NCBI GenBank assembly: GCA_015490755.1
Contig: WFXF01000028.1
Span: forward strand, 1-42,261
Origin: Gammaproteobacteria bacterium
Lineage (GTDB): Bacteria > Pseudomonadota > Gammaproteobacteria > JAADGQ01
Direction: 5' to 3'
DNA: 42,261 nucleotides
The position numbers and the translations under genes were made by a program. Position 1 is the stretch's first letter, and every line of letters starts with the position of its first letter. The notes below the pieces were generated by a model. That model was not told where the DNA came from, did not search any database, and saw only the letters and a program-made list of their open reading frames with translations. Below, piece after piece: positions 22,618 to 33,905 of this stretch.

Positions 22618-22734
22618 AATAACAACCTTAACAAGCACTCTAAATTAAACGAATGCAATAATAACGATAATTTTTTCATCTTGCCTGCTAATTTATTAAA
22701 AACTTGAACAGATAGCGTCTAAAGGAGTATCTTC

Positions 22735-23388
22735 ATGAATATGAGCAGACGAAACTATACTCCTATTGATCATCTTGTCATGAATGCCGACCACGCCATT
22801 CGTACTCTATTTGGCAAGCCCGATATTACTGAACGCCCCAACCCTGCAAAAGATTGTACCAATGAAACCGATCTTACAGAAAAGGAACGCAAGCTCTCTG
22901 CTGCATTAATGCGAATTAACCATGCAGGTGAAGTCTCTGCACAAGGGTTATACCGAGGTCAGGCTCTCACCGCCAAACTGCCAGAAGTTCGTTCAAAAAT
23001 GGAGCGCGCCGCTCAAGAAGAGAATGACCACTTGGACTGGTGCGAAAAACGGCTTGTAGAACTAGACAGCTACACCAGTCGGCTCAATCCTGTCTGGTAC
23101 TTTGGCTCACTCGCCATGGGCGCAACAGCCGGCTGGATTGGCGACAAATGGAGCCTGGGTTTCGTCGTGGAAACAGAATACCAGGTCATTCGTCACCTGG
23201 ATGAACATCTTGGCAAGCTTCCAAAGGCTGACCAAAAAAGTCACATTATTCTTCAGCAGATGAAAGAGGATGAAGCGCATCATGCAACAATCGCCCTGCA
23301 TGCTGGTGCAGCCCCTCTGCCCTGGCCGGTTAAAAAGATGATGTCCGTCACCTCAAAGATCATGACGCGTTCAGCATATTGGTTATAA
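22735..23388 (+). CDS. coq7: Coq7, 3-demethoxyubiquinol 3-hydroxylase
   Basis: The 217-residue diiron enzyme hydroxylates demethoxyubiquinol in the next-to-last steps of ubiquinone synthesis. Metal-ligand motifs are RINHAGEVSAQGLYRGQ, QEENDHLDWC, VVETEYQVIRHLDEHL and MKEDEAHHATIALHAGA, supplying the Glu and ExxH residues. It is the diiron Coq7 type rather than the flavin-dependent UbiF. AAAGGAG precedes the start. It heads a plus-strand group coq7-hslR-nudix-dcyD with gaps of a few bases. Confidence 0.95.
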   Translation: MNMSRRNYTPIDHLVMNADHAIRTLFGKPDITERPNPAKDCTNETDLTEKERKLSAALMRINHAGEVSAQGLYRGQALTAKLPEVRSKMERAAQEENDHLDWCEKRLVELDSYTSRLNPVWYFGSLAMGATAGWIGDKWSLGFVVETEYQVIRHLDEHLGKLPKADQKSHIILQQMKEDEAHHATIALHAGAAPLPWPVKKMMSVTSKIMTRSAYWL

Positions 23389-23394
23389 GCCCAT

Positions 23395-23811
23395 ATGGCC
23401 AGGCGCAACCCCATTCAAGAAACGGCTGAAGACACCCTGCGTCTGGACAAATGGCTCTGGGCCGCACGTTTTTTTAAAACTCGCGCCCTTGCCTCGGAAG
23501 CCATCAACGGCGGCAAAGTTCACATTAATGGAACTCGTTGCAAACCATCCAAGACCGTACAAGTGGGCGACAAACTCACTATTCAACGCACACCCTACGA
23601 ATATGCCATTACCATATGCAAAATTAACAGATTTCGCCGGCCTGCCAAAGAAGCGGTATTACTTTACGAAGAGAGTGAAGAGAGTCAAAAGGCACGCGAA
23701 ACACTGGCAATTCAGCTTAAATTACAAGCGGCTTCAATGCCTCAACCCAGCCACCGCCCCACAAAAAAAGAGCGTCGCAAAATCATCCGCTTTACCAACA
23801 AAAACTCATAA
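23395..23811 (+). CDS. hslR: HslR (Hsp15), S4-domain ribosome-rescue protein
   Basis: The 138-residue basic protein has an S4 RNA-binding domain: LRLDKWLWAARFFKTRALASEAINGGKVHINGTRCKPSKTVQVGDKLTI (residues about 16-65). A Lys/Arg-rich tail follows. In E. coli Hsp15 binds 50S subunits that still carry nascent peptidyl-tRNA and helps recycle them. Length is close to the E. coli protein (133). The ATG is six bases after the coq7 stop. Confidence 0.93.
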   Translation: MARRNPIQETAEDTLRLDKWLWAARFFKTRALASEAINGGKVHINGTRCKPSKTVQVGDKLTIQRTPYEYAITICKINRFRRPAKEAVLLYEESEESQKARETLAIQLKLQAASMPQPSHRPTKKERRKIIRFTNKNS

Positions 23812-23821
23812 ACCATAACTC

Positions 23822-24364
23822 ATGCACAGAAAATTTCTGCAAAACAAGCTCGATCAATACTCACCCATTGATGCAGACGAAGCACTCACACTTCTCGACA
23901 TGGTAGCGTTTGTGAATCAACACCCTGACTGCTTTGATCGTGAATTGAGCGTCGGCCACATCACAGGCTCCGCATGGGTTGTCGATTTAGATCGTAGCCA
24001 CATTTTATTGACTCACCACCGCAAGCTGGATCGCTGGTTACAACTGGGTGGCCACTCGGATGGTGACCCCAACACTCTCGAAGTCGCTCTGCGTGAAGGG
24101 CGTGAAGAGTCAGGAATCGAAGAGATTCGCCCCGTCACAGAAGAGATTTTTGATCTTGATATCCATCTGATTCCTGCCCGAAAAAATGAAGCCGAGCATT
24201 ATCACTATGATGTCCGTTTTTTGATTGAAGCGGATCGCAACACGCCATTTGTCATCAGTGAAGAGTCTCATGACCTTGCCTGGGTTCCACTTGATAAAGT
24301 CGAAAAACTAATTGATGAAGCCTCCATTCTTCGTATGCTGAAAAAAACGTATGAAATAAAGTGA
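23822..24364 (+). CDS. NUDIX hydrolase
   Basis: This 180-residue protein has a NUDIX domain with the box GHSDGDPNTLEVALREGREESGI near residues 79-101. The REx2EE catalytic core is complete, but the first Glu of the classical consensus is Pro. RKLDRWLQLGGHSDGD before the box and EEIFDLDIHLIPARKNEAEHYHYDVRFL after it form a family recognised by the GGHxDGD pattern, whose substrate is not established. The stop codon overlaps the dcyD start. Confidence 0.9.
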   Translation: MHRKFLQNKLDQYSPIDADEALTLLDMVAFVNQHPDCFDRELSVGHITGSAWVVDLDRSHILLTHHRKLDRWLQLGGHSDGDPNTLEVALREGREESGIEEIRPVTEEIFDLDIHLIPARKNEAEHYHYDVRFLIEADRNTPFVISEESHDLAWVPLDKVEKLIDEASILRMLKKTYEIK

Positions 24365-25278
24365 GTATCATTAGAGCTGCCTGCAGACCTTTACAGAAAA
24401 TTGAAGATAAAATTCTGGACAAGGCAGGTGTAAGGCTTTTAATCAAACGGGAAGATCAAGTCCACCCAGTCATCTCTGGTAACAAATGGCATAAACTGAA
24501 ATACAACCTTGAAGTGGCGCAAGCACAAGGGCATGACAAGCTACTCAGTTTCGGGGGCGCTTACTCCAATCATATTTACGCATTGGCAGGAGCAGGTAAA
24601 GCTTACAATTTCAACACCATCGGCATGATTCGTGGTGAAGCGTATACCCCCTTAAATCCCACACTGCAATTTGCAGTGGATCAAGGGATGCAGCTCCATT
24701 ACCTTAGTCGCAGCGATTATCGCCACAAGTATGAGCCTGAAATTCTTGATAAATTAAAAGAACAGTTTGGTGAATTTTACTTGATTCCCGAAGGTGGCAG
24801 TAATGCTCTTGCAGTCAAAGGGTGTCGAGAGATTATTGCCGACATCAACGTACCTTTTGATGTAATTACCTCCCCCTGCGGCACGGGTGGCACTTTAGCA
24901 GGATTAATTGCAGGCCTTGAAGGCAAGAAAAAAGCAGTTGGCTTTGCTGTGCTAAAAGGCGCTCACTTTCTGCAAGATGATATCGCTCAACTTTTGCGTG
25001 ATGCAAATGAACCCGGCTTTGAAAACTGGGAGATCAATCTTGATTACCATTTTGGTGGTTATGCCAAAGCAAAACCTGAACTCTTAAGTTTCATTGATGA
25101 ATTTGAAGCACAACATAACATCCCACTGGAGCCAATCTACACCGGAAAAATGATGTATGGATTGTTTGACTTAATCAGGCAAGGGAAATTTCCCCGTGGC
25201 ACAGTCATAGTGGCGATACATACTGGGGGGTTACAGGGTAGAAAATCAAGATTTAAGTGTTTTAATAATGCTCTGTAA
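24361..25278 (+). CDS. D-cysteine desulfhydrase / ACC deaminase family PLP enzyme, C terminus replaced
   Basis: The 305-residue fold-type II PLP enzyme resembles DcyD and ACC deaminase-like proteins. SGNKWHKLKYNL supplies the PLP lysine, GGAYSNHIYALAGAG is a substrate-loop motif, IPEGGSNALAVKG and SPCGTGGTLAGLIAG form the phosphate-binding region, and YTGKMMYGLFDLI and IHTGGLQG lie near the end. D-cysteine desulfhydrase activity is likely but substrates vary. The GTG start overlaps the NUDIX stop (GTGA). After HTGGLQG, the last residues (RKSRFKCFNNAL) are encoded by the antisense strand of a hepT relic, so the native tail was lost in a rearrangement. The core is intact, so it may still work. 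Confidence 0.82.
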   Translation: MSIIRAACRPLQKIEDKILDKAGVRLLIKREDQVHPVISGNKWHKLKYNLEVAQAQGHDKLLSFGGAYSNHIYALAGAGKAYNFNTIGMIRGEAYTPLNPTLQFAVDQGMQLHYLSRSDYRHKYEPEILDKLKEQFGEFYLIPEGGSNALAVKGCREIIADINVPFDVITSPCGTGGTLAGLIAGLEGKKKAVGFAVLKGAHFLQDDIAQLLRDANEPGFENWEINLDYHFGGYAKAKPELLSFIDEFEAQHNIPLEPIYTGKMMYGLFDLIRQGKFPRGTVIVAIHTGGLQGRKSRFKCFNNAL

Positions 25279-25365
25279 CTCAGTTAAAAGTGTTGGGATA
25301 TCATCCTGAGCAAAACCAACCATATCATCTATATAGAAGTGCCATGCTTTTTCTGCTAATCGCAA
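25246..25365 (-). pseudogene. hepT relic with internal deletion (HEPN toxin)
   Basis: A 39-codon minus-strand frame from a possible TTG reads RLAEKAWHFYIDDMVGFAQ, then DDIPTLLTELQSII, and ends KTLKS. The first part is the N terminus of HepT (compare SERAWHFYIDDMVGFAQ at 31691). The second part is the typical HepT C terminus (QDDIPxLLxEL). The middle 80 or so residues, including the RX4HXY RNase motif, are missing, with the join at a CAG codon common to both ends. No mntA precedes it; the LuxR stop codon lies three bases upstream. Its 3' end supplies the new tail of dcyD on the opposite strand. Confidence 0.8.
25306..25348. repeat. Direct repeat copy 1 (hepT 5' end)
   Basis: This 43-base stretch matches 31638-31680 at 41 positions in the same orientation. 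Both encode the HepT segment RAWHFYIDDMVGFAQ on the minus strand. Together they bound the accessory island of about 6.3 kb. Confidence 0.85.
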
Positions 25366-25368
25366 GCT

Positions 25369-26150
25369 TCATAGCAATTCAACAGCACGATAGATCCCAA
25401 GAAAATACCTAAGCGCGTGTACATTTTTAACACCAAGCTTTTCACAAATTTTAGGAAGCAGGTTTTTTGCATACCCTGATGAAATATCATAATAGCTATC
25501 AAGAGCTTTCATCGGGAGTCCTGTAGCAATAAACTTTAGCAACTGTCTCTCTTTTTTATTGAAGCCATCAAACAGAGGGACAATAAAAACTTTTTTGCAA
25601 TCCATATCAGCATGGACTCTATTGTGAAAAAGCTTGATCAAAACTTCAACACACTGAGCATTATCTTTAACCAGCTGAGAATGTACCCGGTCACTATCAC
25701 AACAGATAACACTCGCCCCAGAAATTTCATGAGGAGCACAGAGCGTTGGAATCGATAAACCATTCCGTATATTATAATCCTCTCGCGCCACCTCAAAAAC
25801 ATTCCGCTGGCTTTTAGTGAGCACCCCTTCACGCTCTTTTTCCCACCAATCAATAAGCACCCTATCTCCTTTAGCAATACGATTGACTGTGTAATCACTT
25901 TCGAAAAAGTTTTCTTCCGCATAGTGCTCTAAAAACGAAAGCGGATATGTATCTGAGGCTTGAAAAAAAGGGAGAGGATCTTTCTCCGCCTTTTTTACGA
26001 TACCTAATGGGACTGACATATAAAGCACACCATCAAACCCTAATTGCCGGATTGCATTTTCCAGCAGATCAAAGCACTGGGAAAAACCGTTTCTTTCTGA
26101 TAACTCAATTGCAAAATTAGCAACAATATTGCGGGGGGGGGGTTAGGCAT
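25369..26150 (-). pseudogene. LuxR-family autoinducer-binding regulator, out of frame at a poly-C run
   Basis: From 26028 down, an open frame of 219 residues shows a LuxR autoinducer-binding domain (HYAEENFFESDYTVNRIAKGDRVLIDWW, YNIRNGLSIPTLCAPHEISGASVI). A C-terminal HTH follows (FNKKERQLLKFIATGLPMKALDSYYDISSGYAKNLLPKICEKLGVKN). The same frame continues upstream without stops as RNIVANFAIELSERNG and CFDLLENAIRQLGFDG to a run of ten C. Before the run the frame is shifted (MPNPPP). With 11 or 8 C the protein would be about 260 residues from the ATG at 26150. It is either phase-variable, broken, or a homopolymer sequencing error. No luxI was found in the window. Confidence 0.82.
26133..26142. 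repeat. Homopolymeric G(10)/C(10) tract inside the LuxR-type gene
   Basis: Ten G on the plus strand are ten C in the luxR coding sense, at codons 3 to 6 from the ATG at 26150. Tracts of this kind near a start codon are classic slipped-strand phase-variation sites. With the present length the downstream frame is off. Confidence 0.85.
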
Positions 26151-26221
26151 AACAACATTATGCTCCATTTCAAAGACAGGGTTAAGGGTTATCCTAAAAC
26201 AGCGTCTATAACCGTAATCAA

Positions 26222-26506
26222 TCAAAGCTTTTTAAGCAACAAAAAATTGATGCCACCAAGATAATGTTTCTGGTTACACTCAATCACCTTAAATCCTACG
26301 CCTTGCACCTGCTGAATCAGCTCATTATTGCGAAGGTCAGAAGAAATGCTAAACAGAAAAGGTTTAGTTTTGTTTAGGAGCGAGCACGAAGTAAGTTTGT
26401 ATTGCTTGTACTTTGTCACCAGCTTGACGAATACCACGCCTCTTGCTTTAATGTGTATTGATTTAAAAATTAATACACATCCTGGGACACGTAAAGATGA
26501 GAACAA
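26222..26506 (-). CDS. Unrecognised short ORF upstream of the LuxR-type gene, possibly a fragment
   Basis: A 94-codon frame ends ELIQQVQGVGFKVIECNQKHYLGGINFLLLKKL, which looks like real protein (a Gly-Phe turn and alternating hydrophobics), but no family is recognised. Its 5' part runs through the vapB promoter palindrome and over the vapB start. The true start is therefore probably further in, or the gene has lost its 5' end. The stop codon sits at the 5' edge of the LuxR frame. A remnant of a longer enzyme gene is possible. Confidence 0.3.
   Translation of the reverse strand: MFSSLRVPGCVLIFKSIHIKARGVVFVKLVTKYKQYKLTSCSLLNKTKPFLFSISSDLRNNELIQQVQGVGFKVIECNQKHYLGGINFLLLKKL
26451..26480. promoter_or_regulatory. 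30-bp palindrome before vapBC, probable autoregulatory operator
   Basis: The arms ATGTGTATT (26451-26459) and AATACACAT (26472-26480) are perfect complements. The inside continues as ATTT / AAAT with one G-T mismatch, so nearly the whole 30 bases are symmetrical. It ends 16 bases before the vapB ATG. VapBC complexes repress their own operon by binding such inverted repeats through the VapB ribbon-helix-helix dimers. Confidence 0.65.
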
Positions 26507-26691
26507 ATATCGTTATAGATGATGATCTTATGAATGATGCCATACGGTTGACTGGAGTAAAAACCAAGCGTGAAGCTGTTGAGATAGCACTTAAATCACT
26601 GATTAAAATAAAAAAACAGGAAAGCATCAGAGATTTTCGAGGCAAACTAAAATGGGAAGGTGACCTGGACGACATGAGAACCAACAAGTGA
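26497..26691 (+). CDS. vapB: VapB antitoxin
   Basis: The 64-residue antitoxin begins MRTNIVIDDDLMNDAIRLTGVKTKREAVEIALKSLI, the ribbon-helix-helix form of VapB that binds DNA. The tail ESIRDFRGKLKWEGDLDDMR is the toxin-binding part, with the Trp common in such tails. Its stop overlaps the GTG start of vapC by four bases. It lies just after the palindromic operator and should control its own operon. Confidence 0.92.
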   Translation: MRTNIVIDDDLMNDAIRLTGVKTKREAVEIALKSLIKIKKQESIRDFRGKLKWEGDLDDMRTNK

Positions 26692-27086
26692 TTTTTATTG
26701 ATTCCAGTGTATGGATTGACTACTTCAATGGAAACCAGACACCCGAAACGGAAAAACTGGACTCCATTCTTGGCAGCTCCCCTATCTGTATTGGAGATAT
26801 TGTGCTTACAGAAGTTCTACAAGGATTTAGGAACGATAAAGACTTTAATGCCGCCAAAAAACTGTTGAATGCTCTTGATGTGGTGAATGTTCTTAATACC
26901 TCTATTGCTATAAAAAGTGCGAGCAACTTTCGCGCTCTCCGCAAAAAAGGAATTACAGCAAGAAAAACCATTGATGTCATCATTGCAACTTATTGCATAG
27001 AAAATTCAATCCCATTACTCCACTCAGATAAAGACTTTCTCCCATTTCAAAAACACCTTAATTTATTAACGCCCCTCACCCACTGA
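26688..27086 (+). CDS. vapC: VapC toxin, PIN-domain ribonuclease
   Basis: The 132-residue PIN protein begins MIFIDSSVWIDYFNG with the first catalytic Asp. ICIGDIVLTEVLQGFRNDKDF supplies the conserved Glu. RKTIDVIIATYCIENSIPLLHSDKDFLPF carries the two further Asp that complete the metal site. All four acidic residues are present, so the toxin should be active. VapC toxins cut tRNA or rRNA. Translation starts at GTG overlapping the vapB stop. Confidence 0.95.
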   Translation: MIFIDSSVWIDYFNGNQTPETEKLDSILGSSPICIGDIVLTEVLQGFRNDKDFNAAKKLLNALDVVNVLNTSIAIKSASNFRALRKKGITARKTIDVIIATYCIENSIPLLHSDKDFLPFQKHLNLLTPLTH

Positions 27087-27194
27087 AACACACTCGCAGC
27101 AGGAATACCTATATCCAGCCCTTATACACACCATCAACTACCAGAATTTCCAGAACCAAACCTGGCGATTTATCACATTATCAAAACAAATAAA

Positions 27195-27212
27195 AGGTGA
27201 AAAATTTCACCT
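27195..27212. promoter_or_regulatory. 18-bp palindrome upstream of the lipoprotein gene (operator copy 1)
   Basis: AGGTGAAAAATTTCACCT has 8-bp perfect arms around AA. It is 16/18 identical to the palindrome at 29013-29030 before the HTH regulator gene. Two copies in the same accessory group suggest a shared operator, probably for that regulator. Confidence 0.6.
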
Positions 27213-27332
27213 ACCTAAAAAATGAACTTTCCCTTAAAGTTCAGCGTGAATTCAATTCTTTAACAATACTTTTAAGCTCCAGCGTCGGCCTAATTGTATT
27301 TTCTTAAATATTAGGCGCATAAGGAAGTAGTG

Positions 27333-27923
27333 ATGAAAAATTATGTGATTATACCTGTTTTGATGTTAGTGGTACTTCTTTCCGGTTGTAAGGATGACAA
27401 GACAGGCACAACGGAATTAGAAGGAACTTGGAGTATTGGTTGTACTTCTGACGGCTTTGATAATTATAGCAAGGAGACGTTAACTTACTCAGGCAATTCA
27501 ATATCAATGAAGATTGAAAATTTTGATGATGCGAGTTGTTCTGAGAAGGGGAAGCAGACAGAGTTTAGTGTCACTGGCAATTTTTCTCTAGGTGATGAAC
27601 TAACATTATCCTCAGGCCGCGCAGCACGTAACATAGATTTAAGTAACCTAAAGTGGTTCATCACGATCTATAATGGCACTGTAATACCTGCATTTAATTC
27701 AAAACAACTATGCGGAAAAGCAAATTGGCAAAAAGGTCAAAAAACTGAAATTACCAATTGTGATGCGTTTGGTGGGGCGTTGGGACAATCTGAGTCATAT
27801 GACATATATCGAATTTCTGGGACAAGCCTGTTTCAAGGAGATACTGAGTATGGAGATACTCGCAGTAAAAATAACCGCCCTACTCAATTATTAGAAGGCA
27901 GCTTTTACACAAAAGCTAATTAG
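27333..27923 (+). CDS. Putative lipoprotein, unknown function
   Basis: The 196-residue protein has a lipoprotein signal: MKNYVIIPVLMLVVLLSGC, with the lipobox LSGC. The next residues (KDDKTG) include Asp at position +3 after the lipidated Cys. The mature part begins LEGTWSIGCTSDG and continues with ETLTYSGNSISMKIENFDD. That pattern is common to lipocalin-like or META-like secreted proteins that open with a GTW motif, but no family is certain. Four mature Cys besides the lipid anchor may form disulfides. AAGGAAG precedes the ATG at 27333. The palindromic operator lies about 120 bases upstream. Confidence 0.72.
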   Translation: MKNYVIIPVLMLVVLLSGCKDDKTGTTELEGTWSIGCTSDGFDNYSKETLTYSGNSISMKIENFDDASCSEKGKQTEFSVTGNFSLGDELTLSSGRAARNIDLSNLKWFITIYNGTVIPAFNSKQLCGKANWQKGQKTEITNCDAFGGALGQSESYDIYRISGTSLFQGDTEYGDTRSKNNRPTQLLEGSFYTKAN

Positions 27924-27954
27924 TAGTTTATGTAAATAATAACCTAATCGGGAA

Positions 27955-27978
27955 GCTGAGGGTATAGATATCCTCAGC
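27955..27978. terminator. Hairpin after the lipoprotein gene
   Basis: GCTGAGG (27955-27961) pairs with CCTCAGC (27972-27978), and the stem continues inward through G-T and TAT/ATA. It starts 31 bases after the stop codon. No T-run follows, so termination is possible but unproven. Confidence 0.35.
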
Positions 27979-28164
27979 ACCCACAACACCCTGCCTACGC
28001 TTCCGCAGAGGGCACTTCCTAACAGAAGAGAGAGCTTTCAGAGTCTGAGCGTGTATCGATAAAGCATGTTCTTAAACTCCTTAATGCTGGGTTACGTACG
28101 AAACAATAACCCTGAGTGGCACTACTAACGCTTAAAATTGCCTGCATTCGTCAAAGGAAGAAGT

Positions 28165-28680
28165 ATGTTTAATTTCAAGGCAATAATTGCCACTGTACTT
28201 ATGAGCCTTGTTAGCATGAGCACTCATGCAGATTATTTCTGGCTAGAGGCTAGAGCCGGAGGTTCAAACATAGGCCTTAATTTAGGAATCCAACTCAACT
28301 ACGCCGTTAAAGAGCATGTTTACTCCATTGGATTTGCAAACCCAGATACTGATTTACTGTTTGATAATGAAGGCAATGTTGCGTATGAGGAATACTATAT
28401 AGTTTATGGTATACACAATTATAAAAAGTGGTATAGCACTACAATGCAAGCTGGTATTAGCGCGATGAAAAAGCAAGTGTCTTCATCTTGTGAGAATATC
28501 GGACTTCTTCGTACTGAGTGTGAAAATGAAAGCAACTCTATAACGGTAGGCATCCCTTTAGATTTCACGGTAACCCTTGGTAAATATGCTGGATTAGGTC
28601 TAAACCTCCACTTAAATATCAATTCACTTCAGCCGTTGGCTGCACTCAGTATCAATTATTCGATAGGGAAATTTAATTAA
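28165..28680 (+). CDS. Secreted, outer-membrane-barrel-like protein of unknown function
   Basis: The 171-residue protein has a signal peptide (MFNFKAIIATVLMSLVSMSTHA) followed by DYFWLEARAGGSNIGLNLGIQLNYAV. Alternating hydrophobic strands run to the end (LDFTVTLGKYAGLGLNLHLNINSLQPLAALSINYSIGKFN). Strand alternation and a C-terminal aromatic residue near the end fit a small beta-barrel in the outer membrane. Two Cys (SSSCENIGLLRTECEN) may form a loop disulfide. AAAGGAAG precedes the ATG at 28165; the frame upstream is ignored. No family was recognised. Confidence 0.68.
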   Translation: MFNFKAIIATVLMSLVSMSTHADYFWLEARAGGSNIGLNLGIQLNYAVKEHVYSIGFANPDTDLLFDNEGNVAYEEYYIVYGIHNYKKWYSTTMQAGISAMKKQVSSSCENIGLLRTECENESNSITVGIPLDFTVTLGKYAGLGLNLHLNINSLQPLAALSINYSIGKFN

Positions 28681-28727
28681 CGGATTAAGCGTGGTGTATG
28701 AAGGAAAAACATCAATTTAAATGAACA

Positions 28728-28760
28728 AAATCACTACTGAGTGATTTGCATATTTATAAT
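28728..28760 (+). promoter_or_regulatory. Palindrome and -10 box before the small membrane protein gene
   Basis: AAATCACT (28728-28735) and AGTGATTT (28740-28747) are perfect 8-bp arms around ACTG. A consensus TATAAT follows at 28755-28760, 24 bases before the GTG start. There is no good -35 box; the palindrome covers that place, as an activator site or operator would. Confidence 0.4.
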
Positions 28761-28783
28761 CTATATTAATTTGGAGAAAAAAA

Positions 28784-28984
28784 GTGTTAACCCGTATTTT
28801 TTCAGACGCTTTTAATGGAGCCATTTTTGGAGCAATAGGTATCATCATAATGATTGAAGTATCAAGTAGCATGGTTCAATTTACTTATGCTCTATTTGCT
28901 GGTAGCTACTCAATCACGGCTTTACTTGGTGGTTTAATCGGGGCCGTAATTAATAGCCTTATTTCAATTTCTGGAAAAGGTTAG
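28784..28984 (+). CDS. Small membrane protein, unknown
   Basis: This 66-residue protein starts with GTG after GGAGAAAAAA. Two hydrophobic segments are seen: FGAIGIIIMIEVSSSMVQFTYALFAG and ITALLGGLIGAVINSLISI. Both hold Gly residues spaced as in helix-packing motifs. No family was recognised; the good ribosome binding site and clean membrane pattern support a real gene. It lies between the barrel-like protein and the HTH regulator on the same strand. Confidence 0.55.
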   Translation: MLTRIFSDAFNGAIFGAIGIIIMIEVSSSMVQFTYALFAGSYSITALLGGLIGAVINSLISISGKG

Positions 28985-29010
28985 CCTCTTCATATAGCAC
29001 CTACTTTACC

Positions 29011-29032
29011 AAAGGTGAAAATATTCACCTTT
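29011..29032. promoter_or_regulatory. 22-bp palindrome upstream of the HTH regulator gene (operator copy 2)
   Basis: AAAGGTGAA (29011-29019) and TTCACCTTT (29024-29032) are perfect 9-bp arms around AATA. The core AGGTGAAAATATTCACCT differs at two positions from the palindrome at 27195-27212. It lies about 110 bases before the regulator ATG, which fits autoregulation. Confidence 0.6.
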
Positions 29033-29142
29033 ACTAAGAGGTAGATTTTGTTCTAGAGTCGGGCATTATGAATATGTTGTCAAAAACATCAATAAATACA
29101 GACAAGTAATCATATTTCATTACGTTACAAAGAGGGAATAGC

Positions 29143-29973
29143 ATGAAAAAAGCTTCTGAACCTTTACCACACCTGAAAGAAAAACTTGGAATTTTATTAA
29201 AACAGTTGGGGCGAAAACAGAGCTGGTTAGCTGCTGAGCTAGGCCTTAATCGTAGTCGTATCTCACGAATCAAAAAAGATGGAAAAGTACCAGACGCAAA
29301 AATCATGGCGTTCTGCCACGCACTTAGAGTTACTCCGCAAGAGTTAGAACTAGAAAGCATTGATGAATTTAAAAACAAACGTGAAAATAATTCAGACAAC
29401 AAAGAAGAAGGCGTTGAGTGGCGTGATTTTGTAAAAAAACACAACGAATTTAATCTAAAAGTTCAGCCCAAAAAGAAGCACTCTATGCCCCTAAAAGTAA
29501 TTTCTCCACTTGATGCACAAAGAGGCCTTTCTTATGAACAAAAACCTGCCAGCATAACCCTGCTTAAGCAAAAGCTCGTATCTTTAAGACAGCAAATTGA
29601 ATTTGAAATCCTCTACAATGAAACTGGTTTAAGTGATGATATTGAAGTTATTACATACGTATTGCTGTTAGAAGACGAAAGTGGTCTGAATATTATTGCA
29701 CCACTGAAACAACCATCAAAACCTCAAGCAAGTTCAAATGCATATTTATTCAGCAATGATAATAATGGTGGGTTTTATGCAAGTGAGCCTGTTGGCCAAC
29801 ATACAGCACATTTACTCTTGCTCTCCCAAGCATTAACAGAAGAAATTCAGCAGGATTTTAATAGTCAAAATATTAGAAGAGCCGCTGATAAATTAGCAAT
29901 CTGGCTACAAAATAAAGAAAACAAAATTAACTTTTCTTTAAATAGCACTAACTTTTTTGTTTCAACTCAGTAG
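29143..29973 (+). CDS. XRE-type HTH regulator with an unrecognised C-terminal domain
   Basis: In this 276-residue protein, residues about 9-66 form an XRE/Cro-like helix-turn-helix (LKEKLGILLKQLGRKQSWLAAELGLNRSRISRIKKDGKVPDAKIMAFCHALRVTPQELE). A charged linker follows. The C-terminal half (from about 140) has no recognised domain; it contains EFEILYNETGLSDDIEVITYVLLLEDESGLNIIAPL and ends with an AADKLAIWL helix, perhaps a sensor or oligomerisation part. AGAGGGAA precedes the start. The gene is preceded by one of the two matching palindromes, so it may control itself and the lipoprotein gene. Confidence 0.72.
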   Translation: MKKASEPLPHLKEKLGILLKQLGRKQSWLAAELGLNRSRISRIKKDGKVPDAKIMAFCHALRVTPQELELESIDEFKNKRENNSDNKEEGVEWRDFVKKHNEFNLKVQPKKKHSMPLKVISPLDAQRGLSYEQKPASITLLKQKLVSLRQQIEFEILYNETGLSDDIEVITYVLLLEDESGLNIIAPLKQPSKPQASSNAYLFSNDNNGGFYASEPVGQHTAHLLLLSQALTEEIQQDFNSQNIRRAADKLAIWLQNKENKINFSLNSTNFFVSTQ

Positions 29974-29981
29974 GTGACCCA

Positions 29982-30038
29982 ATGAGCAATATAAATAAAC
30001 TTATACTAAATCAAACTCCTGAAAGGAGTCATAAATGA
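29982..30038 (+). CDS. 18-codon leader ORF coupled to the downstream membrane protein gene
   Basis: An ATG with AGGTGA four bases before it starts an 18-codon frame (MSNINKLILNQTPERSHK) directly after the regulator stop. Its TGA overlaps the ATG of the next gene (ATGA). The frame runs through the hairpin at 30015-30029, which holds the next gene's ribosome binding site. Ribosomes on the leader would therefore open that site. This is inferred from layout only. Confidence 0.4.
   Translation: MSNINKLILNQTPERSHK
30015..30029 (+). promoter_or_regulatory. Hairpin covering the Shine-Dalgarno of the 30035 gene
   Basis: ACTCCT (30015-30020) pairs with AGGAGT (30024-30029) around GAA, six base pairs with a three-base loop. 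AGGAG is the only ribosome binding site for the ATG at 30035, so in the folded RNA it is hidden. Confidence 0.5.
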
Positions 30039-30304
30039 GTTGGTGGCCCAAGTTTTTTATCGCTCTATTTATTGATTTTCTAGACATGACCGTAGGGCGA
30101 CTTTTATTTGTCATACCATTTAGTGGCGAAATAATCGGTGTTGCTGTCGGCTATGCGATGTTTGGTAAAAAGGCCTTTTTCTATGCCCTGGAAGCCATTG
30201 ACCCCACCGAACAAATCGATGGCTTTATCCCAACCGCAACACTGATCGCACTTGCAGCAAAAGCTGACCATGATCAAAAACTCCAGTTGGCTAAAGCTCG
30301 TTAA
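30035..30304 (+). CDS. Small membrane protein, unknown
   Basis: The 89-residue protein starts MSWWPKFFIALFIDFLDMTVGRLLFVIPFSGEIIGVAVGYAMFGKKAFFYAL, with one or two membrane helices. A soluble tail rich in Ala, Lys and Asp follows (GFIPTATLIALAAKADHDQKLQLAKAR). A strong AGGAG lies before the start, but in a hairpin. No family was recognised. It stands last in the plus-strand group of accessory genes after the HTH regulator. Confidence 0.6.
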   Translation: MSWWPKFFIALFIDFLDMTVGRLLFVIPFSGEIIGVAVGYAMFGKKAFFYALEAIDPTEQIDGFIPTATLIALAAKADHDQKLQLAKAR

Positions 30305-30448
30305 GGAGTGCAACAAAACCAAAGAATTTTCTCACAAAAACTACTGGGGTTGGCATAGCAATTATAGGAAGAATATTAATGATGGGAGATGACGTTTGCT
30401 TTAAATTGTATTAGTTGGCCTATCCGCTGGAGCACCTTAATACCGCGA

Positions 30449-30736
30449 TTACACTACACGAGATGCTAATTTTTTATAAATTGTACTTTTGTCCCGTTTA
30501 CCTACAGCTAATACATAAATTACGATTTCATCATCCAATACCTCGTATGCTAATCTATAGCCCGCTACACGTAATTTGATCTTATAAACATAATCATAAC
30601 CTTTTAACTTAGCCGATGGCACATGAGGGTTTACAAGTCTCTCTGCAAGTTTTTTCTTAAATTGTTTCTTGAGTGGTTCAGCTAGTTTATCCCACTCTTT
30701 TTTAGCTAGGGGAAGAAACTTTAATTTATAAGTCAT
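30449..30736 (-). CDS. relE: RelE-family toxin (RelE/StbE type)
   Basis: The 95-residue basic protein has the RelE pattern MTYKLKFLPLAKKEWDKLAEPLKKQFKKKLAERLVNPHVPSAKLKGYDYVYKIKLRVAGYRLAYEV. It ends VIYVLAVGKRDKSTIYKKL, with the C-terminal catalytic-type Lys/Arg/Tyr residues. RelE toxins cut mRNA in the ribosomal A site. The start overlaps the antitoxin gene by 11 bases. It differs clearly from the RelE-type toxin at 304-573. Confidence 0.93.
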   Translation of the reverse strand: MTYKLKFLPLAKKEWDKLAEPLKKQFKKKLAERLVNPHVPSAKLKGYDYVYKIKLRVAGYRLAYEVLDDEIVIYVLAVGKRDKSTIYKKLASRVV

Positions 30737-30977
30737 TTAAATCAACTTCAATAGCGCTTGATAAATCTGCACGTCGATTTTCAACTACTTGGCTCAACTC
30801 ATAATCATCTAGCACATCCATTAACCATTCATATGTTTCCGCAGGAACTAAATAGGCTGTAGGTTTATTATGATTTAATATAGCAATGGCTGAGCCATCA
30901 GCTTCATTCAATAATGATGTAGGATTTTTTTTAAGCTCAGAAATACTTGCTGAGAAATCAGCTAATACTTGCCTCAT
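30726..30977 (-). CDS. relB: RelB/StbD-type antitoxin
   Basis: The 83-residue antitoxin matches the StbD/RelB (Phd-like) group: VLADFSASISELKKNPTSLLNEADGSAIAILNHNKPTAYLVPAETYEWLMD, then an acidic tail (LDDYELSQVVENRRADL) that binds the toxin. The ATG at 30977 is preferred over upstream TTG and GTG codons because GGTGAA lies before it. AATTAAG-type repeats just upstream are likely its operators. Confidence 0.9.
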   Translation of the reverse strand: MRQVLADFSASISELKKNPTSLLNEADGSAIAILNHNKPTAYLVPAETYEWLMDVLDDYELSQVVENRRADLSSAIEVDLNDL

Positions 30978-30998
30978 AACATTCACCAATTAAGTATC

Positions 30999-31051
30999 AA
31001 ATTAAGCCCTTATTTTAGAACTTAATTTAATTAATAGCTAGAGCTTAATTT
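30999..31051. promoter_or_regulatory. Repeated TTAATT operator-like sites before relBE
   Basis: AAATTAAGC (30999-31007) and its exact reverse complement GCTTAATTT (31043-31051) flank a third CTTAATTT at 31021-31028. Three copies just upstream of the antitoxin start fit cooperative binding by the RelB-RelE complex. The region also separates relBE from brnA upstream on the same strand. Confidence 0.45.
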
Positions 31052-31093
31052 ATCGGTATAACGCCATTACTATTTTTAGGCCTTTGCATTTTT

Positions 31094-31345
31094 TTATTCT
31101 TCACGAATAACTTTTCTTAATAGCGTTTCATCCACTATTGATGAAGAGCTATAGGCCTTTAATGTTTGATTAATCAGCGTTTGATAACCTAAACCTTTCT
31201 GTTTTGCTTTTAATCGAAAACTCTTTATGACTTCGTTATCCAGCATTATAGTGATTCGTGTTTTACCTTCTTCTGTTTGTAACTGCGCTAAATGAGGAAC
31301 ATCTTTAGCTCGCTTGGCTTTTGAAAAATCATATTCTTCACGCAT
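31094..31345 (-). CDS. brnA: BrnA antitoxin
   Basis: The 83-residue protein begins REEYDFSKAKRAKDVPHLAQLQ, the conserved BrnA start. It continues with the ribbon-helix-helix part GKTRITIMLDNEVIKSFRLKAKQKGLGYQTLINQTLKAY. In Brucella BrnA binds and neutralises the RelE-fold toxin BrnT and represses the operon. Its ATG overlaps the end of the HepT-BrnT chimera by eight bases, the coupling expected of a brnT-brnA pair. The BrnT half retained in the chimera is its natural partner. Confidence 0.92.
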   Translation of the reverse strand: MREEYDFSKAKRAKDVPHLAQLQTEEGKTRITIMLDNEVIKSFRLKAKQKGLGYQTLINQTLKAYSSSSIVDETLLRKVIREE

Positions 31346-31691
31346 AACATCCTGCCTCTTTTTTCGTGGCCTTTCTTGCCGAAATTAAACGAATTATTTT
31401 GTCATTTCTTAGCGTATAAACTATTGTGAGTAGGCGAGCCGCCTTATTACTCAAACCAACTAATACCCAGCGGTTCTCATCTATTGAGCCAACATCCTCT
31501 TGTACAAGTGCCATTTCATCATAAAGTACTGTTGCTGCTTCACCAATTAACTCAAGATTGCGAACTGTAGCATCATAATTCAAACCTGTGACCTCAAATG
31601 TTGCCTGATCCAGACCATCACAATAAGAGATAACATTCTGAGCAAAACCAACCATATCATCTATATAAAAATGCCATGCTCTTTCAGACAT
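31338..31691 (-). CDS. Chimeric toxin: HepT N-terminal half fused to BrnT C-terminal half
   Basis: In this 117-residue open frame, residues 1-54 are the HepT (HEPN, DUF86) N terminus: SERAWHFYIDDMVGFAQN, GLNYDATVRNLELIGEAAT. Residues about 51-117 are the BrnT C terminus: EAATVLYDE, RWVLVGLSNKAARLLTIVYTLR, IIRLISARKATKKEAGCY. Both parents carry EAAT at the join, so the fusion probably arose by deletion between short homologies (31529-31543). The HepT RX4HXY RNase motif and AMPylated Tyr are gone, as are the BrnT N-terminal KHGV region and first strands. The gene overlaps mntA and brnA by eight bases each. It may be inactive, or act as a new bipartite antitoxin-binding protein. Confidence 0.88.
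   Translation of the reverse strand: MSERAWHFYIDDMVGFAQNVISYCDGLDQATFEVTGLNYDATVRNLELIGEAATVLYDEMALVQEDVGSIDENRWVLVGLSNKAARLLTIVYTLRNDKIIRLISARKATKKEAGCYA
31638..31680. repeat. Direct repeat copy 2 (hepT 5' end)
   Basis: This 43-base stretch matches 25306-25348 at 41 positions, in the same orientation. It encodes the N terminus of the chimeric toxin. Recombination between the two copies would remove the island between them. Confidence 0.85.
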
Positions 31692-31974
31692 TAACAGCCT
31701 CTCGCTCTATAAAAGGCCGCAATTCAGATCGCATCGCTTTTTCAGTTACCAAATCAACCGGATGACCCAATTCATCTTCCAGATAAAATTGCACGCCAAA
31801 ATACTTTTCAGAGGTTGCAGGCCCATCAAATGAGACGACAATATCAATATCACTATCAGGTCGCGCTTCATCACGCACCGTAGAACCAAACAAAGCCAAA
31901 CGTGTTACCCCAAAATTCTTCACTAAATCAGGTTTGAGTTTGGCAAGAGTGTCTAATGCCTGTATACGATTCAT
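31684..31974 (-). CDS. mntA: MntA antitoxin, minimal nucleotidyltransferase
   Basis: The 96-residue MNT protein has the motif GVTRLALFGSTVRDEARPDSDIDIVVSFDG near residues 22-51. It includes the GSxxR nucleotide-binding loop and the DxD metal site. MntA proteins neutralise HepT by adding AMP groups to a Tyr near its RNase motif. Here the neighbouring HepT has lost that Tyr, so the classical mechanism cannot operate on it. The stop overlaps the chimera start by eight bases. The remaining HepT N-terminal half may still be bound. Confidence 0.93.
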   Translation of the reverse strand: MNRIQALDTLAKLKPDLVKNFGVTRLALFGSTVRDEARPDSDIDIVVSFDGPATSEKYFGVQFYLEDELGHPVDLVTEKAMRSELRPFIEREAVNV

Positions 31975-32049
31975 AAATATTTTTCCAGTTTATCCAGATT
32001 CATTTCGTAATACCCGTACAATTATGCAATTTCATCGCTTATATTGCTC

Positions 32050-32736
32050 TCATTCATCCTTACAACGCACGATATCAAGATAATCGCGCAAGCTTCTTCC
32101 CGACAAGACTTCAAACTTCTCTTCTAATAATTTAATATTTTTCATTCGATCCAGACGAAAATGACGAAATTCGTCACGCAGCTCACACCAGGCCACTAGC
32201 GTCCAGACACGCCCCCAATAAAATAGCCCCAGGGGATGTACAGTCCGTGATGAATGTTGACCATCTTCTCGTGTGTAGTCATAAGCCGTTTTGCATTGTT
32301 GTTTGATTGCACAGCGTAACAGAGCCAAATGCTCTTGAGTGATCGGGCTGACATTGAAATCAGGCACCAGCAACTCTTCACGATCCAGTTCCGGCCTGAG
32401 CCGCTCTGGAAGTGCATTTTCTATTTTACGAATGGCCTGATGCGCTGCACTCGCCAGACTTTTATCTGTCCATGCCTGCACCATACGGGCACCTAAAATT
32501 AATGCCGCCAGCTCTTCTTCGTCAAACATCAACGATGGAAGGTGAAAACCTTTCATCAGACGATAGCCCACACCGGCCTCACCTTCGATCGGCACACCAG
32601 AAAGCGATAGGTCCTGAATATCCCGATAAATGGTACGTTCGGAAACCTCCAGTTCTTCAGCAAGGTTGCGAGCAGTTGTGACCTTGTTATGATCTAACAA
32701 CCCGACAATTTGAAACAGACGATCGGCTCTGCGCAT
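32050..32736 (-). CDS. YafY-like transcription regulator with HTH and WYL domains
   Basis: In this 228-residue protein, residues 1-60 are an HTH_11 winged helix (MRRADRLFQIVGLLDHNKVTTARNLAEELEVSERTIYRDIQDLSLSGVPIEGEAGVGYRL). Residues about 135-220 are a WYL domain (ALLRCAIKQQCKTAYDYTREDGQHSSRTVHPLGLFYWGRVWTLVAWCELRDEFRHFRLDRM). Such regulators sense ligands, often nucleic-acid or nucleotide-like, through WYL. The ATG follows the DUF2461 stop directly, so it is the last gene of a three-gene operon and probably regulates it through the inverted repeat at 33882-33905. Confidence 0.92.
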   Translation of the reverse strand: MRRADRLFQIVGLLDHNKVTTARNLAEELEVSERTIYRDIQDLSLSGVPIEGEAGVGYRLMKGFHLPSLMFDEEELAALILGARMVQAWTDKSLASAAHQAIRKIENALPERLRPELDREELLVPDFNVSPITQEHLALLRCAIKQQCKTAYDYTREDGQHSSRTVHPLGLFYWGRVWTLVAWCELRDEFRHFRLDRMKNIKLLEEKFEVLSGRSLRDYLDIVRCKDE

Positions 32737-33423
32737 TTAAAAACGCAACTCCAAAGCATTACATAAGTAGCTCATTAATGGCGTGGCCTGACTAAAACGC
32801 TCAGACACCAGAGGAAACAGTTTCTTTGACACCACCTCTTTTTCGCTGAGGTTAGCAATTGCGATAAAATCTTTACGCTTCAGATCGTCAATCAACGAAT
32901 GATCCTTTGCATAGCCGCGTGGTGGATTTTTTAGTGCATCACCTTCAAGGGTAAAGTGTTTGTTGAAGTTTTTGTCATCTCGGGCTGTCACCCAGCCATC
33001 ACCTTTTTCAACAATAGCGTCACGAATTTTGCCTAATGTTTTAGAGTCGGGTCGCCAAATACCGACACCGATAAAACATGCGCCATTTTCGATATGCAGA
33101 TAAAATCCCGGTGCATGTACATCCTTGCCGACCTCGTGACGAAACTGAATACCAATATTGGTTTTGTAGGGACGCTTATCCTTGCCAAAACGCATATCAC
33201 GATGAACACGCATTAAAGAGCCACCCACTTTTTTAGGCAGTGCCGTAAAGTGAGGCGATATAATCGCCAGCTCATTGGCAAAATCAGTAATAAAATTCAG
33301 GGCGGGTATGCGAACCGTCTCTTCATAAACCTGCCTGTTTTCCTGAAACCAGTCACGATTGTTATTCGCCGCCAGTTTCGATAAAAAAGTAAAGGTTTCC
33401 TGAGTGAAGAAACGATCCGACAT
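32737..33423 (-). CDS. DUF2461 family protein (TIGR02453)
   Basis: The 228-residue protein shows the DUF2461 pattern: FLSKLAANNNRDWFQENRQVYEETVRIPALNFI near residues 14-46, the invariant RVHRDMRFGKDKRPYKTNIGIQFRH near the middle, and GFYLHIENGACFIGVGIWRP. Biochemical function is not established for the family. It sits between a VOC protein gene (six bases upstream) and the WYL regulator gene (no gap). Confidence 0.9.
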   Translation of the reverse strand: MSDRFFTQETFTFLSKLAANNNRDWFQENRQVYEETVRIPALNFITDFANELAIISPHFTALPKKVGGSLMRVHRDMRFGKDKRPYKTNIGIQFRHEVGKDVHAPGFYLHIENGACFIGVGIWRPDSKTLGKIRDAIVEKGDGWVTARDDKNFNKHFTLEGDALKNPPRGYAKDHSLIDDLKRKDFIAIANLSEKEVVSKKLFPLVSERFSQATPLMSYLCNALELRF

Positions 33424-33429
33424 TTTTAA

Positions 33430-33825
33430 TTAATCCTTTTTGAAGTATGTGATTAACATAAGCGTCGCTCCTTGTGGATCCTGAATCACCACAAAGCGCC
33501 CTACTTCAGGGATATCCTGCGGTGGAACCAAAACCTTGCCACCCAGACTTTCAACACGAGCCGGCATCGCATCAACATCATCGACGGTAACATAAGCCCC
33601 CCAGCTGGGTGGCATTCCTGCGGCTTCTTTGGGCGTTGCCATAATACCCGCCACTTCTGTATCCCCTGCCTTGGCCATGGTATATGCGCCACAGCTGGAC
33701 TCCATATCTGTCAGGCTCCAGCCCAATAGATCACTATAAAAAGCCTTGGCTCCGGCAACATCGTTGGTCATCAACTCGTTCCAGCTGAACGCACCGTGTA
33801 ATTTCATTGCTTCTGTTGTACTCAT
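33430..33825 (-). CDS. VOC-family (glyoxalase/bleomycin-resistance fold) protein
   Basis: This 131-residue protein has two beta-alpha-beta-beta-beta modules: GAFSWNELMTNDVAGAKAFYSDLLGWSLTDME in the first and WGAYVTVDDVDAMPARVESLGGKVLVPPQDIPEVGRFVVIQDPQGATLMLI in the second. This fits the group of short VOC proteins annotated as glyoxalase-like. Metal ligands cannot be confirmed from sequence alone; the substrate is unknown. It is the first gene of the VOC-DUF2461-WYL operon. Confidence 0.88.
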   Translation of the reverse strand: MSTTEAMKLHGAFSWNELMTNDVAGAKAFYSDLLGWSLTDMESSCGAYTMAKAGDTEVAGIMATPKEAAGMPPSWGAYVTVDDVDAMPARVESLGGKVLVPPQDIPEVGRFVVIQDPQGATLMLITYFKKD

Positions 33826-33881
33826 TTTTATCCCCTTGTTTATATTAATTTTGTATCAGGAAATTTAAGTATATAGGGCGA

Positions 33882-33905
33882 CTCCTGACAGCATTGTGTC
33901 AGGAG
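33882..33905. promoter_or_regulatory. 9-bp inverted repeat in the VOC operon promoter region
   Basis: CTCCTGACA (33882-33890) and TGTCAGGAG (33897-33905) are perfect arms around a six-base spacer. On the minus strand one arm includes CTGTCA, followed 17 bases later by TTAAAT, a possible -35/-10 pair. This is a good place for binding by the WYL regulator encoded at the end of the operon. Confidence 0.45.

Follow-up and report, generated by a model that had tools for sequence, protein, structure and literature searches.

A LuxR-type gene out of frame at a C10 tract: probably the receptor left over from an acquired FeeM-methyltransferase-LuxR cassette

Introduction

In Bordetella pertussis, a change in the length of a poly-C tract in the regulator gene bvgS switches the organism (PMC1891110), and homopolymers at the 5' ends of genes, chiefly poly-A and poly-T, have been described as a general way in which prokaryotic genes are inactivated (PMC2831843). 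The LuxR-type gene described here resembles bvgS in that a C tract lies within the coding frame of a regulator and one tract length leads to a truncated protein. The two cases differ in that length variants of bvgS have been observed and change the phenotype, whereas the LuxR gene is represented by one length in one assembly; moreover, its tract is found at the extreme 5' end. A search of the literature returned no LuxR gene in connection with phase variation and poly-C or other homopolymeric tracts. The preliminary description of this locus regarded switching in a regulator as unusual, a statement that the poly-C switching of bvgS (PMC1891110) makes weaker than it was put.

The gene can also be compared with LuxR solos, quorum-sensing receptors of the LuxR type that have no linked LuxI. 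It encodes a complete Autoind_bind domain and is likewise unaccompanied by a linked synthase. Unlike the solos, it is broken at a run of ten cytosines (C10), its helix-turn-helix (HTH) region is too divergent for a Pfam match, and its relatives adjoin a FeeM-like synthase and a methyltransferase rather than LuxI. The third point of comparison is FeeM, an N-acyl amino acid synthase (PF21926). A FeeM-like gene lies two genes ahead of LuxR in relatives of our gene, but the genome studied here has no FeeM match. The combination of FeeM, methyltransferase and LuxR was not found in the literature searched.

Results and Discussion

The window, by which we mean the whole 42,261-nt stretch of DNA that was analyzed, contains a single C/G run of 8 or more. 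By direct count, it is exactly ten C on the minus strand (ten G on the plus strand) at 26133-26142, a length taken from one assembly of the single genome of the species. The LuxR-type frame (25369..26142, minus strand; 257 codons plus stop), with its complete Autoind_bind domain and divergent HTH region, runs without a stop from 26142 to 25372 and is closed by one at 25369-25371. On the other side, a TAA at 26143-26145 sits directly 5' of C10 in the LuxR frame, and the upstream ATGs, whose first bases are 26168 and 26158, each fall in one of the two other frames. Reading from ATG 26168 proceeds through C10 and terminates at the stop at 26040-26042. The tract, about 25 nt from this likely start, sets the frame, and with ten C the LuxR frame is lost. 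The preliminary description had reported ten consecutive C near the start with the LuxR frame shifted across them, and both points hold. So, for ATG 26168, does its arithmetic, by which eleven or eight C would give a full-length protein of about 260 residues.

An internal start 3' of C10 was considered and rejected: no ATG, GTG or TTG occurs in frame between C10 and 26028, and the earliest one, GTG 26028, is within the Autoind_bind domain. No second break is visible over the 257 codons. Homologues align nearly back to the tract (for example, 'NIVANFAIEL' in the window against 'SIKIGNFAIEL' in L063), and thus C10 genuinely breaks the frame in this assembly. When the frame was read from C10, the Pfam match to Autoind_bind had an E value of 1.2e-16 and covered profile positions 4-149 of 149, which bears out the proposed LuxR-type identity. 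Reading from GTG 26028 reduced the match to 2.5e-11 and positions 36-149. Since the match improves when read from the tract, the coding part reaches back nearly to C10.

The C-terminal HTH region of the protein is divergent. GerE, the C-terminal HTH domain, had no Pfam match at E 0.01 in the frame read from C10. The protein showed a weak sequence match to the structures of RhlR and TraR; the phmmer alignment to RhlR extends into the HTH, and matches confined to the HTH (NarL and DesR) were weak. We take the ligand-pocket residues to be W57, Y61, D70, P71, W85 and G113 in TraR numbering. As read from the weak TraR alignment with this numbering, Y61, D70, W85 and G113 are kept, W57 is replaced by F and P71 by Y. 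The protein retains 33 of 44 conserved columns, which is within the range of its relatives, at the low end. Because these columns are kept and the frame is undamaged apart from C10, the gene appears to have been under constraint until recently, or to be so still; for the former reason, the frameshift is probably recent. A search for LuxI-type synthases (PF00765) gave no match in G000, G001 or G002, and control genomes likewise gave no signal.

Immediately 5' of the receptor lies what remains of a class I methyltransferase gene (26222..26326, minus strand), namely its last ~33 codons and stop. It ends in 'LIQQVQGVGFKVIECNQKHYLGGINFLLLKKL' and is 58-61% identical (tblastn) to the C-termini of the methyltransferase that precedes LuxR in L039, L078, L052, L061 and other relatives. 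Its stop is about 53 nt 5' of ATG 26168. The same gap separates methyltransferase stop and LuxR start in L039, which supports the ATG at 26166..26168 (minus strand) as the native start, in a frame that differs from that of LuxR at ten C. The upper end of the span initially given for the gene, 25369-26225, is approximately where the methyltransferase remnant stops, and ATG 26168 is the likelier start.

In relatives from another gammaproteobacterial family, a FeeM-like synthase (PF21926, 2e-17), a methyltransferase and LuxR often follow each other on one strand. The methyltransferase adjoins LuxR in 16 of the ~53 relatives, 12 of which also show the FeeM-like synthase within the short stretches compared. 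The intact order was found in at least nine relatives, in each case with no LuxI in the cassette: L039 (2-2118), L046 (1471-3593), L050, L052, L053, L054, L061, L077 and L078. LuxR comes first in the gene order of L044 and L047. The window holds an incomplete version, with only the C-terminus of the methyltransferase left beside LuxR out of the two enzymes. FeeM (PF21926) had no match in the window's genome, which is 99.67% complete, and the same search succeeded in G002, G076 and G416. The recurrent cassette without LuxI is a candidate signaling system, and the two enzyme families point to an N-acyl amino acid methyl ester as its possible signal. A similar arrangement is found in Pseudoalteromonas piscicida (L226 3395-5399; NZ_CP074588.1), where a longer open reading frame, of 416 codons, has the methyltransferase at its end and shares a few bases with the LuxR frame; the N-terminal part of this longer frame looks like an acyltransferase.

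The receptor is part of an island, 25254..32056, that the same-genus genome G001 lacks, as seen by blastn of the window against L043. There, the sequences flanking the island (window 22690-25253 and 32057-33905) adjoin each other (L043 5139 and 5145). The island is 6.8 kb long and mostly lower in G+C than its flanks. It contains the LuxR gene, VapBC-like genes, small genes judged by eye to be toxin-antitoxin-like and a duplicated HepT-like fragment. A VapB antitoxin and a PIN-domain (VapC-like) toxin at 26497..27086 on the plus strand (Pfam VapB_antitoxin, 8.3e-18; PIN, 2.2e-13) adjoin the methyltransferase remnant. Fifteen nucleotides past the LuxR stop is the HepT-like fragment, 25297..25353 on the minus strand, which is 91% identical to 31629-31685. 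This 57-nt direct repeat lies near both ends of the island and may mark recombination that shaped it. The island has been acquired and rearranged. An integron-like nature was rejected, because no family of attC-like repeats was seen; the only repeats were that of HepT and some short matches attributable to chance. No tRNA or Rfam match was found within the window.

The gene itself has no counterpart in G001 or in the same-family genome G002; G001 encodes a different, weak Autoind_bind protein. No close orthologue was detected by a pattern scan of the genome contigs or in the genomes of 55 relatives. Among 369 members of the class, only distant matches were found, and the matches on plasmids were just 22-28% identical. 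One other gammaproteobacterial family is rich in distant relatives (~25-40% identity), which occur in 37 of its 63 genomes and in all 8 genera.

The explanation that we consider probable from these observations is that the gene is the receptor left stranded when an acquired cassette of FeeM, methyltransferase and LuxR lost its other genes, and that simple slippage in a slippery tract inactivated it. A cassette of a FeeM-like N-acyl amino acid synthase, an S-adenosylmethionine methyltransferase and a LuxR-type receptor would have been acquired. It would then have lost its synthase and almost the whole methyltransferase, leaving a toxin-antitoxin pair abutting the break and the receptor alone in the rearranged island. 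Finally, a change in the length of C10, just inside the start codon, would have shifted the receptor out of frame. We infer the order of these events, the use of ATG 26168 as the native start, the recency of the change and its nature as plain slippage, not a switch that evolved. The proposal accords with the methyltransferase C-terminus beside the gene, the intact cassettes elsewhere, the lack of a FeeM match, the absence of the island from G001 and of LuxR from both G001 and G002, and the HepT duplicate. It fits less well with a frame that is undamaged except at C10 and with the position of both coding tracts of 10 or more at gene starts, as expected of switching genes. The loss of the synthase also does not prove that LuxR lost its function, because a receptor of this type can function unlinked to any synthase. 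Runs of about ten C are known to slip, and single cells could for that reason revert to an intact frame; a use of such reversion is conceivable.

The preliminary description proposed phase variation, in which C10 slips in replication and toggles the receptor between cells, the assembly having captured the OFF state. This is possible but unproven, and we consider an evolved switch of this kind unlikely. The tract is close to the likely start with an intact frame downstream, as such a switch would have it, and bvgS provides a precedent in a regulator (PMC1891110). On the other hand, the tract length is known from a single assembly, and no frame-breaking C/G run like C10 was found among the ~53 distinct, distant relatives of the gene. 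Only two of these have a C/G run of 8 or more near the 5' end, L050 and L055, and neither run breaks the frame; tract-based switching thus does not appear to be a trait of this LuxR family. A 5' poly-G run as a family trait was rejected on the same count, the two runs being of 8-9 bases with the frames intact in their assemblies. In L055, the run is a G8 inside the open frame; in L050, a G9 (2261-2269, C on the plus strand) lies just 5' of the likely ATG, in the ribosome-binding region. Three other relatives (L073, L074 and L095) are split between frames at sites without long runs, so ordinary mutational loss does occur in the family. Finally, the gene looks like the remnant of an acquired cassette, and for this reason we rate an evolved switch below ordinary decay or a tract that slipped or was miscounted.

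We evaluated how common long tracts are in the genome. In the window, C/G runs extend with a probability of ~0.22 per base, from which runs of 10 or more are expected roughly 0.02 times per window and ~1.1 times per 2.63-Mb genome. Four were observed, an excess just mildly above chance (Poisson P = 0.026): one in an intergenic terminator-like repeat, one elsewhere between genes, the C10 of LuxR and a C11 in a lipoprotein-like gene. Of the coding C/G tracts in the genome, each of the 26 that are 8-9 long is in frame, as opposed to neither of the two of 10 or more (Fisher P = 0.0026), and both of the latter sit at the 5' ends of their genes. This contrast, and a second long tract that is likewise 5' and out of frame, would suit phase variation. 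The 5' position and the broken frame fit switching genes, but they fit simple slippage and miscounting as well.

The C11 (contig C77:14430-14440; L026 1501-1511) is ~16 nt past the likely GTG start of the lipoprotein-like gene, 'TASLALSLVACGS', an 803-codon open frame that is out of frame in the assembly. It is a second candidate for a slipping tract. No counterpart of this lipoprotein-like gene was found in G001 or G002.

G001 has four coding tracts of 10-11, two of which lie close to the 5' ends of surface-related genes, which would also suit phase variation; both are in frame. One, a G11 (L214 1475-1485), falls where a DUF1302 protein has its signal peptide; the other, a G10 (L210 8639-8648), is close to where an O-antigen ligase-like gene begins. 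The window's genome has an orthologue of the DUF1302 gene, 88% identical, that lacks this G11, so nothing points to a repertoire that is maintained. Conservation of long tracts within the genus was rejected because of this G11 and because the lipoprotein-like gene was not found in G001 or G002.

It is also doubtful that the frameshift is an error of assembly or consensus, in which case the true tract would leave LuxR in frame and the gene would simply be intact. The genome is a draft of 94 contigs, the named relatives found are mostly metagenome assemblies, and the only coding tracts out of frame are the longest two, the kind most prone to a miscount. Against this, the 26 coding tracts of 8-9 that are all in frame indicate no general homopolymer problem in the assembly. 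We give very little credence to the proposal that the receptor of a non-acyl-homoserine-lactone cassette survives as a solo that is randomly switched by C10, such that only some cells respond to the signals of their neighbors.

As a frameshifted remnant of a regulator, the LuxR gene would be ordinary. If C10 truly switches, chance would decide which cells respond to a cell-cell signal. A tract of the same length is found in the same-family genome G002 (contig C176; L224 1467-1476), where a C10 lies directly 5' of the Shine-Dalgarno-like sequence of another gene, and a change in its length could alter the expression of that gene.
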